From contig JAVKHP010000001.1 in assembly GCA_031459855.1 (NCBI GenBank), positions 1,765,906 through 1,829,905 of the forward strand: 64,000 bases of DNA. Direction: 5' to 3'. Below, piece by piece: positions 19,116-60,520 of the stretch (positions are counted from its first letter, which is position 1; the number at the start of each line of letters is the position of its first letter). This stretch comes from Armatimonadota bacterium (GTDB lineage Bacteria > Sysuimicrobiota > Sysuimicrobiia > Sysuimicrobiales > Humicultoraceae). A model generated the notes under the pieces. That model was not told the origin of the DNA. It made no database searches and was given only the letters and a program-made list of their open reading frames with translations. Position numbers and translations under genes: made by a program.

Positions 19116-19921
19116 TCACCCCCGGGCCCCCGTGGCGCCCGATGACGATATGACGACGGCGCCGGCGCGGGTGGCGGCCTCGACGGCGGATGGGTGGATC
19201 ACGAAGCCGAAGAGCACAGGCACCGGGGCGCCCGGCAACACCGGGGCGAGGGTCTGGACCTGCCTCCAGAACGCTTCCACGTCCCGGCCGTGGATGCGGC
19301 TCTTCACCTCGCCGACCACTACGATGCGTTCGCCGTCGCGCGTCCCTCGCCGTACAGGTCGACTTCGACCTCTTCACCGTCCACCGTGAGGAAGCGTCGC
19401 TCCAGGGCGCCCACGCGGATCCCGCAGTGTTTCTCGAGGTAGGCGGGAGCGACTTCGCGCGCGAGGTCCTCCAGGGTGAACCCGAGGGTCTCGGCAAGCG
19501 TGCCAAGCTGTCGGGCTGTCTCCCGCTGGGCCTCGGCGAGGCGGTGCATCTCCTCCACGAGTCGGGTAACCTGGCCCTCCGTGCGACGCTGCGCATCGGC
19601 CAGCTGTTCGAGGTGGGTCTCGGTGCGCTGCTGGGCGGCGGCCAGTTGCTCGAGGCGGGTCTCGGTACGCTGCTGGGCGGCGGCCAGCTGTTCGAGGCGG
19701 GTCTCGGTGCGCTGCTGGGCGGCGGCCAGCTGCTCGAGGCGGGTTTCGGTACGCTGCTGGGCGGCGGCCAGCTGCTCCACCCGCACCGCCAGCTGGCGCA
19801 CGATTTCCGGCAGCGAGAGCAGCTCGTCGGTCAGCAGCAGACGGCGCAGTTGGGCCCGCCACTCGGCGCGCTTCTCCAGCGCCCGCAGCAAACCCTCGAA
19901 GTCGCGGAGCGTAAAAGGCAT
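19116..19921 (-). pseudogene. coiled-coil PD-(D/E)XK nuclease-like (DUF3782-like) gene, frameshifted
   Basis: The first part (ATG 19921) encodes a helical start, five 14-residue coiled-coil repeats (residues 48-117, LEQLAAAQQRTETR) and the start of a nuclease-like core with GEEVEVDLYGEG. That frame stops at 19319. The next frame continues at once with VVGEVKSRIHGRDVEAFW and runs to 19116. Joining them gives the expected acid-E-x-K nuclease core, so one base is missing in the CGCGCG run near 19336-19342. This may be a true pseudogene, a sequencing error or, less likely, programmed frameshifting. Such proteins are common in archaea and thermophiles; their role is unknown. Confidence 0.7.
19571..19780 (-). 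repeat. five 42-bp tandem repeats encoding a coiled coil
   Basis: Each 42-bp unit encodes 14 residues of the form LEQLAAAQQRTETR. The central three units are nearly identical at the DNA level, so the array has expanded recently. It lies within the frameshifted nuclease-like gene. Confidence 0.85.
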
Positions 19922-38242: not shown

Positions 38243-38335
38243 CCCCTGCCCTCGGCACTTACGACAACCGGACCGCCGCGGCATCGCCTCACGTCCGTGC
38301 AGTGGGTCCACTCCGCGCATTGGGTGGAGGCCCGG

Positions 38336-38435
38336 GCATCCTCATTCACGTCCATGCATCCTCATCCACGCCCGTACATCCTCATCCACGCCCACGCATC
38401 CTCATTCACACCGGCGCGTCCCCATCCACGCAGGT
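38336..38435. repeat. five 20-bp tandem repeats
   Basis: Five consecutive 20-base units follow the pattern GCATCCTCATYCACGYCCRT, at 38336, 38356, 38376, 38396 and 38416. They lie in the 486-bp gene-free stretch 38243-38728. Unit 5 is the most degenerate. There is no spacer between units and no cas gene nearby, so this is a minisatellite, not CRISPR. Confidence 0.85.
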
Positions 38436-38487
38436 GCGCCCTTCGATCGACGGCGCACGCGACGCCGGCGGCGACCCCGGACACGCA

Positions 38488-51898: not shown

Positions 51899-52324
51899 GT
51901 GGTGGCGTCCTCCCGGCGATCCCGACGGCGCAGTCCCACGGTGCATGCCTTCCCCTACGATGCGCGACGCGACCCACCGGCCCCCGTGCTCCCGGTGCGC
52001 CTCGGACCGCCCCGCGCCGAGCCGGCGACCGCCGTGGCGGCGCTCGTGGACAGCGGCGCCGACGTCACCGTCCTCCCGGACGGCCTGCCCCAGGCGCTCC
52101 GCCTGCCTCAGGTGGGCGAGGTGACGGTACGTGGCGTGGCGGGGACGGCTCGTGTGCCGGTCTTCGCTGCGGAAGTGGAAGTGGCCGGTGGGCGACGGAT
52201 CGCTGAGGTGGTGGGAGTGGGCGGAGAGGTGCTCCTGGGGCGCGATCTGCTCAACCAGTGGGTCGTGACGCTCGACGGCCCCCGACGCTCGCTGCAGGTG
52301 GCGGTCGGGCTCGTGCGGGATTAG
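51899..52324 (+). CDS. retropepsin-like aspartic protease
   Basis: The gene encodes up to 141 residues, about the size of a one-domain clan AA protease. The active-site motif is ALVDSGADVTVLP, followed by a flap region (VTVRGVAGTARVPVF) and the second conserved block GGEVLLGRDLLNQWVVTLDG, typical of bacterial and archaeal retropepsin-like proteins that act as dimers. Start uncertain: GTG 51899 or GTG 51941 (HAFPYDARRDPPAPV), the latter closer to the usual N-terminus. It lies 76 bases after the DUF5678-like gene. The cellular target is unknown. Confidence 0.85.
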   Translation: MVASSRRSRRRSPTVHAFPYDARRDPPAPVLPVRLGPPRAEPATAVAALVDSGADVTVLPDGLPQALRLPQVGEVTVRGVAGTARVPVFAAEVEVAGGRRIAEVVGVGGEVLLGRDLLNQWVVTLDGPRRSLQVAVGLVRD

Positions 52325-57559: not shown

Positions 57560-57590
57560 GAAGGTCACCCTCCTTTCCTCGCGCTCTCGC

Positions 57591-57677
57591 GTGGCGCCTA
57601 CGGCGCGTCCTCGTCGCCGGCGCCCAGATAGTACACGATCGTGGCCGCGTACAGGCGGGCCGCCGCCACCAGCTCGT
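57591..57677 (-). pseudogene. duplicate 3' end of the M20 peptidase gene (87-bp repeat, left copy)
   Basis: This stretch is 85/87 identical to 60434-60520, the true 3' end of the M20 gene, and includes the last 26 codons, the TAG stop (57598-57600) and eight bases beyond it. Here it has no upstream coding part. The two copies flank the nitric oxide reductase gene as direct repeats. The remaining gap to 57872 (about 195 bases) shows no gene. Confidence 0.85.
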
Positions 57678-57872
57678 ACTCTAGGCGAAGGCGGAGTTCA
57701 CGCGGCTGCGACGCGTGTCCCCGCGTACAGAGCGTCCGTGACTCCACACCGGGCCCAGACGATCCATTTGGCGAAGTAGCGGCTGGCTTGGAACCCGCTT
57801 ACCTGCGGGAGAGTGGCCGCCACTACCGAGACCACCGACTACACCGCGCGGCAATAGTGCAAGAGCAACGCC

Positions 57873-60086
57873 TCACATCCGGAGCGCCACGGCCCGGACG
57901 CCCGCGCGGGCGAGGACCTTAGGCACCGTTTCTACCGCCAACAGGGCAGCGCCCAAGATGATCAGAAGGTCCCCGGGGAGCCGAAGCTTGTTGAAGAACA
58001 ACACTTCGGGACGCTCGTAGAAGCTCAGGGCTCGAGCGGCAGCGTAGTCCGCTTGGACCGCCTCCCGCAGCTGCAGAACCCCGACAGGCGTCACGGCCAG
58101 GAACACCATGAGCGCAAGGCCGACATTCATAGCCCAGAACGCCGCCGCGAGTCGGTTCTCGCTCCAGCCCTCCGGGCGGGCATGCCGGAGAGCGTACAGG
58201 CTCAGCCCGACGGCCACGAACCCGAAGGCTCCTAGGAACGAGGCGTGACCGTGGGCCACGGTGAGGAAAGTGCCGTGCTGGTAGTAGTTCACCACCGGGA
58301 GGTTGATGAGCAGGCCAAGGATGCCCGACCCCACGAACTGCCACAGGGCGCTGGCGACGAAGAAGCGCAACGGCCAGCGCAAGGCCCCAGAGATCTCGGC
58401 GCCGCGGGCGAGGGCCCGTAGGGCCGTCCCCAGTAGCAGGAACAGGGGGATGACCTCCAGGGTGCTGAACACGCTGCCGATCCCCAGCCACAGCGGAGGT
58501 TCACCAACCCACCAGAAGTGGTGCCCGATGGCCAGGAACCCCGCCAGCAACACCAGAGCCCCTTCCAGGTACAAGGACTTGGTCACGTCCTCCCGGCTCA
58601 CCAGCCGGAGCCCCGCGAAGAACCACCCGAGCACGAGGATCTGGAAGAACGCGAAAATCCCCTCCACCCAGTGGTGGACCACCCACCACCGCCAGAAGTC
58701 GATGACCACCCAGTGGCTGGTGGGCCGGTACGCGAAGCTGGCGTAGAAGGCAGCCGTGATGCCAGCCCCGTTCCACACCAGCACCTGCAGCAGGGGGCGC
58801 CACGCGACGGCCGCGCCCCACAGGGCGGAGGCGAGGACCGCCACCCACAGGGTGAACCCCACAGCAATCCCAGCCCGCCACAGCCGCCCCATCTCCAGGT
58901 ACTCCGTGCCCTCGCTGCCCAGGAGCGGCGATCGGACCCACCCCTGAACGCTCGCGTACACGCCGAGGAGGGTCCCTGCCACGGACAGGAGGAGGACGAC
59001 CGCGGAGGCGTAGGCCACGGATCGGTGCCACGGCCGCTCCTGGCCGCCGAGGAGCAAGGCGACGTACAGGGCCGCGGACATCCACATCCCCACCACCCAC
59101 ACCACCGCCATGGCGGTGTGGGCCGAGCGCACGGCCTGGAAAGGCAGCACGGCCATGCGCTCCAGCCCCAAGCGGCGGAACAACCCGTAGAAGTCCTCCC
59201 GGGACGCGTACGCGTTGGCGAGGTAGCCGCCCGCCAGGGTCTGGAGGAGGAACACGAGGAAGCAGCCTCCCACGAGCAGCAGGGCAACCCGAGCCAAGAA
59301 GGCGGGCGGCCGGGCGGCGCGTTCCTCCAAGGGCGGCAGCGCGGGGATGGGCTCCAGACGCACCGCGCCGAAGACCACCACGACCAGCAGGGCCAGGACG
59401 AGAACCCACCCCACGGACCACGCGGTCCACAGCACCGTTCCCGGGGTCGGGACAAGGCCCAGCTCCGGCGTGGGCGGGAAGTTGTTGGTGTACGTCCCGT
59501 CGCCTCCGGGCCGGGGGGTCACGGACACCCAGGCGGCCCACGCCACGAAGGCCGCAAAAGGCCCGACCTCCTCCGTCCGCAGGGTGTTGGGGGCGATGCC
59601 GAGACGCCAGTCGCCGCCCACAAACCGGCTGCGGTACCGGCCCTCGATGAGCTGGTGGGCCTGGACCCAGGGAGCCGGGAGGACTGCGCGGTCTCCGTCC
59701 AGCCGGGCCTGTCCCAGGACCTCCCGGACCCGCAGCATCGCCCTCCGCCGCTCCTCGGCGGAAGCCCGGTGGGGAGGTTGGCCGAGCACGCGCTCCGCCA
59801 CCAAGTCGCGCAGCCAGGCCAGGTACTCCGCCCCGTAGTCGGGCCCGAAGTAGCTGCCGTTCCCGAACAGGGTACCGAACCCCATGAGGTTGCGGCGCTG
59901 GAAGACCTGTTGCCCGGCGCGCACGTCCGAAGTTGTGAACAGGACGGCCCCGTCCTCCCCCACGAAGGCTTCGGGGAGGGGCGGCAGGTGCCGGTAGGTC
60001 TGCGCCGCACCCCAGGCGAGGACCACGGCGCTCGCGACCACCACCGTCAGGAGCAGAGCGTTGGCCTGTCGCAGGCTCAAATACAC
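57873..60086 (-). CDS. quinol-type nitric oxide reductase (qNOR family)
   Basis: The gene encodes 737 residues. Residues 1-215 form the qNOR N-terminal helix and periplasmic domain ([21 protein letters not shown]), followed by about 12 helices of a NorB core. Probable metal ligands are His471/472 in VVHHWVEG, the GHH pair His522-523, and His613/615 in [10 protein letters not shown]. Glu475 is at the conserved catalytic-Glu place. Near His323 the quinol-site Glu seems replaced by Ala327. The enzyme reduces NO to N2O at the membrane. GTG start; no SD seen. It lies inside an 87-bp direct-repeat pair, suggesting insertion. Confidence 0.85.
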
Positions 60087-60433
60087 ACGGGGGAAGATTC
60101 AGCATCTGGAGACGGGAGCCCTGCTGTAGCGGCTGTTTGCGGGTCTACACGCGCAGGGGCGTGCTATAGGCCCTATAGGACGATGAAAGCTGCCATGGCC
60201 ACCCAGACTGCGGCGTTGGAAGGTCCCGCCCTTGCGGAAGTCCGTGAGGGCTTGGCCGCAGTGTCTTCTGTACCCAGGGTGGCCTTCACGATCTTGCTTC
60301 TCAGTGTCCGTGCGGGAAACCTCAAGCACAACGGGCGCAGGCGCGCCAGCCTGCGAAGCTCCGGCCGCTTGCCCTCGATGGTGAGCACCGGGAACGCGGC
60401 CGAACATGGCACTCCCGTGGCTGCGGTTCTCTC
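60087..60433. other. upstream region of the nitric oxide reductase gene (~350 bp)
   Basis: No confident gene. Both minus-strand frames through 60180-60420 are open for about 80 codons, one ending in a hydrophobic AAVWVAMAAFIVL, but no family is recognised. This may be a decayed gene brought in with the reductase. A palindrome lies at 60164. Confidence 0.35.
60164..60178. promoter_or_regulatory. 15-bp palindrome upstream of the nitric oxide reductase gene
   Basis: CTATAGG-C-CCTATAG is a perfect inverted repeat about 80 bases before the NOR start. It contains TATAGG on both strands and could be a -10 region overlapped by an operator for an NO-sensing regulator. Confidence 0.4.
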
Positions 60434-60520
60434 GTGGCGCCTACGGCGCGTCCTCCTCGCCGGCGCCCAGATAGTACACGATCGTGGCCGCGTACAGGCG
60501 GGCCGCTGCCACCAGCTCGT
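60434..60520 (-). repeat. 87-bp direct repeat, right copy (3' end of the M20 gene)
   Basis: It matches 57591-57677 at 85 of 87 positions in the same orientation; the period is 2843 bp. Similarity ends sharply on both sides. Confidence 0.9.

Follow-up and report, generated by a model that had tools for sequence, protein, structure and literature searches.

How did a gene for a quinol-dependent nitric oxide reductase (qNOR) come to stand between an M20 peptidase gene and an SDR gene, with a copy of the peptidase gene's end on either side of it? In the window, the stretch of 64,000 nucleotides that was analysed, the three genes follow one another on the minus strand: the M20 peptidase (ArgE/DapE-like, 415 aa; 61688-60441), qNOR (737 aa; 60086-57873) and an SDR family oxidoreductase (57568-56768). 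Through the 2,750-bp segment between the repeats (57678-60427) the operon gains a qNOR gene of matching orientation, and since M20 and SDR both stay whole, the latter with its ribosome-binding site kept, this was probably harmless. An Rfam search of the segment gave no match, and neither FNR-type sites nor sigma-70 promoters stood out above chance. Elsewhere in the window we noted a PIN-domain protein, probably a VapC-type toxin (Pfam PF01850; 55044-55445), a small bacterial retropepsin-like aspartyl protease (Pfam RVP, E 5e-6; 51899-52324) adjoining a protein with a DUF5678 match, a 42-bp unit repeated five times in tandem (14 codons if coding; 19535-19786), of which successive copies are 80-89% alike and the first 61%, and a tandem repeat of a 20-bp unit (ATCCTCATCCACGCCC-like; 38330-38442).

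The initial annotation had reported direct repeats at 57591-57677 and 60434-60520 that are identical at 85 of 87 positions. This is borne out, and the repeat extends further: 57585-57677 and 60428-60520 align ungapped over 93 nt with three mismatches (90/93), including an exact run of 50 nt. It comprises approximately the last 26 codons and the stop of M20 (80 nt), as annotated, but also 13 nt of intergenic DNA downstream of the gene. The genome (3.19 Mb in 4 contigs) holds only these two copies, and the third match is 28 nt at 89%. We sampled 444 kb of the same genome (the window and 19 stretches of 20 kb, about 14%), and the pair was the sole spaced, non-tandem direct repeat of at least 35 nt and at least 88% identity; given this and the exact run of 50 nt, the repeat is not due to chance. 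It is the right copy that forms the genuine 3' end of M20. The left copy, which lies outside any intact gene, sits just before SDR at the old peptidase end, as had been proposed, but it also runs directly on into the native M20-SDR intergenic sequence and the SDR ribosome-binding site. Because it keeps this native SDR-side sequence, the copies are what is left of a single former M20-SDR junction, split into two halves that both carry the 93 bp.

The two copies are 97% identical to each other, as against about 72-87% to the M20 ends of relatives and 35/45 to that of the HR32 genome (G033), which belongs to another family (f4) than the genome studied here (f1). The repeat is therefore native DNA, which the donor did not bring along. 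In the alignment with relatives, of the three differences between the copies a synonymous one seems to have arisen in the right copy and another, changing E to D, in the left copy, within a stretch that is no longer translated as M20; such a pattern would be expected after a duplication, a weak argument on so few sites. We also considered an assembly artefact or chimera at the repeat, since the assembly consists of 4 contigs. The three differences between the copies speak against this, as do flanks that make biological sense (M20 body on one side, SDR on the other), the codon composition of qNOR, which is that of the phylum, and the position of the locus inside a 3.15-Mb contig, and we regard an artefact as very improbable.

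An uninterrupted M20-SDR operon, which the initial annotation had postulated as the ancestral state, finds support in relatives. In five genomes (G006, G027, G030, G024 and HR32), from two families of the taxonomic order to which the studied genome belongs, little separates M20 from SDR beyond a short gap, and the inserted segment is missing; all five are from other genera, and the comparison is made at about 70-77% DNA identity. HR32 has this uninterrupted junction while carrying qNOR elsewhere. The empty sites in five relatives, together with the phylogenetic discordance of qNOR described below, support an insertion into a formerly uninterrupted M20-SDR operon.

The qNOR itself looks intact, with a fused N-terminal cytochrome-c-like domain (Pfam PF22085, NorB_cytochrome_c-like) and the heme-copper domain (COX1, PF00115). 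Its closest solved structure is Geobacillus qNOR (3AYF, E 1e-112), with which the catalytic HHWVEG and IGHH motifs align, conserved His and Glu included. Close homologues were found in only three other genomes of the set, all from f4, namely G021, HR32 (on contig BEII01000250) and, broken in frame, G013, while three further genomes have only distant ones (34-36%); ten other genomes of family f1 lack the gene. In G013 (L039 7651-9804), qNOR is split into several frames, so that the gene seems to be decaying in f4 too, unless this is a sequencing error. Between the studied genome and HR32, amino acid identity is 89.5% for qNOR as against 67.9% for M20, 70.0% for SDR and 83.6% for the rpoB region, and rpoB is 90.0% identical to that of G006 from the same family. 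The two qNOR genes differ at 51 first, 19 second and 178 third codon positions of 493, a pattern indicative of purifying selection, and the 36% difference at third positions means that HR32 is not the direct donor. Composition also sets the gene apart: GC by codon position is 71/48/90, like that of HR32 qNOR (70/47/89) and unlike that of the neighbour genes (79/52/93). Plasmid-borne qNOR are less than 60% identical. These comparisons show horizontal acquisition of the 2.75-kb insert from a Sysuimicrobiota relative of another family, in a phylum to which the window is assigned by its kinship with HR32 and whose norB and denitrification genes are reported to be mostly horizontally acquired (PMC11604079).

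The same figures bear on vertical inheritance, by which qNOR would be ancestral at this site and missing from relatives because of deletions across the repeats. A clean empty site is indeed what recombination between direct repeats would produce, and qNOR is being lost in f4, where it is broken in G013 and reduced to a stump in G024. However, independent loss would be required in all other M20-SDR relatives across families, the copies of the repeat are only 3% diverged as against about 30% for M20 genes between the families, and the likeness of qNOR across families is far above that of M20, SDR or rpoB. This discordance in identity effectively refutes vertical inheritance, which we find hardly credible.

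What surrounds qNOR in the insert gives information on the nature of the incoming DNA. Behind the gene lies a 70-bp stump (57759-57828, minus strand) left over from the 5' end of a gene for a ClC chloride channel. Its place and strand agree with those of the ClC gene that follows qNOR in G021, the assignment to ClC coming from reading the gene sequence rather than from a family search. The stump reads ATLPQVSGFQASRYFAKWIV where G021 has APLPQVSGFEATRYLAKWIV, with 16 of 20 residues identical, and its DNA scores 72, whereas control windows reach no more than 38 and 500 shuffles no more than 36. No intact ClC gene of the G021 type is present in the studied genome, and within the phylum close ClC genes were found only in G021 and G024. 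In G024 (L073, G024:C19), a 28-residue stump of the qNOR 3' end precedes a frameshifted ClC gene, and the HR32 qNOR contig carries, farther downstream, the same DinB-like gene that comes after ClC in G021. On the basis of these three arrangements, qNOR-ClC is a gene order of the donor family f4.

In G021 a divergent CopD/TusA gene faces qNOR, and the other side of the insert may hold a stump of it (60183-60310, plus strand). The match is weak and only suggestive: when the 340 bp preceding the qNOR gene are compared in translation, the score is 47, between the 95% and 99% points of shuffles (44 and 50), while the distance to the qNOR start agrees (145 versus 138 bp). Since a ClC stump stands beside qNOR in the G021 order in a genome without ClC of its own, the insert has the look of a chromosomal fragment rather than of a bounded element. 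From ClC to the next shared sequence there are about 4.7 kb in G021 and about 0.4 kb in G024. HR32 contig 250 (L043 / L031) has alcohol dehydrogenase-like and CBS-domain-like genes at the place of G021's ClC, before the DinB-like gene, and in this respect the nor locus looks like a place of gene exchange.

The outermost parts of the insert are less easily placed. The left edge (57678-57758, about 81 bp) and the right edge (approximately 60311-60427 and, in a weaker sense, 60126-60310; 100-300 bp) match nothing searched: chance-level matches only were obtained for both edges within the genome itself and for the left edge in 43 genomes of the phylum, and neither the insert nor its edges matched phage or plasmid DNA. 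The repeats, only 3% apart, suggest a young event, in which case DNA copied straight from a G021-like locus should be alignable as far as both ends of the insert; that it is not counts against the explanation favoured below. Either the donor locus was different, or the cassette decayed elsewhere in the lineage before moving, or filler DNA was added.

These unmatched edges are the reason why stepwise and circle routes, two options that the initial annotation had offered, keep a minor share of the probability. In such a history the M20 end would first have been duplicated in tandem, or a circular or linear molecule carrying the native M20 end and qNOR would have crossed over within the 93-bp segment. 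The final structure would be identical, integration of a circle by a single crossover usually duplicates the homologous segment (PMC3240628), and the edges suggest an earlier history elsewhere. Both options are thus compatible with the locus, but a circle needs native M20 DNA: the M20 end of the donor family differs by about 22%, so that the circle would have to stem from the recipient's own species. Moreover, neither a tandem intermediate nor a further copy is present in the genome. Overall, we consider these routes unlikely.

Could a mobile element have done this instead? The absence of an integrase or transposase from the insert, as first noted, is confirmed by Pfam for the open reading frames tested, and no inverted repeat joins the ends of the insert among the 25 longest listed; both results rule against insertion of a transposon or IS. 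Alternatively, a recombinase acting in trans could have inserted a cargo unit site-specifically at the gene 3' end, with the repeats as attL and attR. The repeat does include the terminal part of a gene together with its stop and makes the gene whole again, much like an attachment site, and a small inverted repeat surrounds the stop (GCGCCGTAGGCGC). A repeat formed by a 3' gene end and its stop is shared with integrative elements that insert at such ends; unlike them, the locus has no integrase, element genes or recurring site. The three tyrosine recombinase genes of the genome are all more than 900 kb away, M20 gene ends are poorly conserved, no other sequence of the phylum set makes use of the site, and a truncated neighbour from the donor locus stands at one end of the insert. 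Integration at a gene 3' end, another of the original suggestions, is hence left without support, and we judge the attachment-site explanation improbable.

The explanation that we think probable is that a fragment of the f4 nor locus was placed into the M20-SDR junction by illegitimate recombination, with 93 bp of the target duplicated around it. The initial annotation had set a target duplication aside because 87 bp is too long for known transposases; that objection was made on transposase grounds only, and transposase-free long target duplications have been described as a class in bacteria (PMC1643837 and PMC3031569). The best reading is a one-off illegitimate insertion via end-joining at a staggered break or via template switching, and we infer that the duplication was produced as the fragment went in. 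In the likeliest chemistry, a break would open with single-stranded ends staggered by about 93 nt, and the ends would be filled in and joined, as we infer for this step, to an incoming linear fragment by Ku and LigD. Alternatively, a repair fork could copy the fragment and return 93 bp upstream, with an identical scar as the result. A gene for Ku is present next to one for a LigD that has the polymerase, phosphoesterase and ligase domains, and the genome also encodes ComEC; these genes show that the machinery exists, not that it acted. A stagger of 93 nt is long for bacterial end-joining, which counts against that variant, and in the literature we found no direct precedent in bacteria for this exact chemistry.

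We conclude that this is a real, fairly recent and well-resolved horizontal insertion with a 93-bp duplication of native target, and that it is a fresh example of a described, little-understood class rather than a new mobile element. It provides a clear example of a rare but described route into genomes that is taken by plain DNA fragments and not by mobile elements. The family of the donor, its gene order, the empty site and the target duplication are all visible at one locus, making it a well-preserved case of integrase-free gene gain, and it offers a single-gene view of the arrival of norB in a phylum with mostly horizontally acquired denitrification genes (PMC11604079). A tentative generalisation, which we put forward as a possibility, is that bacteria with Ku and LigD take up plain chromosomal fragments at staggered breaks, the filled-in stagger giving target duplications of tens to a hundred bases. 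If true, this would be a way of gaining genes without an integrase, and its duplication scars would allow such gains to be counted. The scar type suggests such counts across genomes, asking whether end-joining bacteria gain genes by insertions of this kind.

Several known systems resemble the locus in part. In homology-facilitated illegitimate recombination (PMC3240628), linear foreign DNA is likewise integrated without a mobile element, but usually with deletion of target and homology at one end, whereas here the target is duplicated and no homology was seen. The deletion-coupled insertions of Haloquadratum (PMC3119063) also place foreign DNA without a recombinase or targeting; the target is deleted there and duplicated here. 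In mouse and human cells, fill-in at staggered ends followed by end-joining yields small tandem duplications (PMC8355091), in which, as in our proposal, the duplication equals the stagger between two nicks, although other enzymes act and no DNA is inserted. The closest counterpart comes from H. pylori, where insertions with long target duplication were reported (Nobusato et al. 2000, as related by PMC1643837, PMC3031569, PMC4978471 and PMC2869330). As in those accounts, a block is present in one genome and the site empty in another, the flanking repeat is long and target-derived, and there is no transposase; the locus studied here combines an uninterrupted target in relatives, a flanking repeat derived from the target and an insert in which no transposase, integrase or IS was found. 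The H. pylori cargo, according to PMC1643837, PMC3031569 and PMC4978471, consists mostly of restriction-modification genes, a common association and not a definition, whereas the cargo here is qNOR. In addition, and in contrast to the H. pylori cases as these papers relate them, the host has Ku and LigD, and both the donor family and its gene order can be named.
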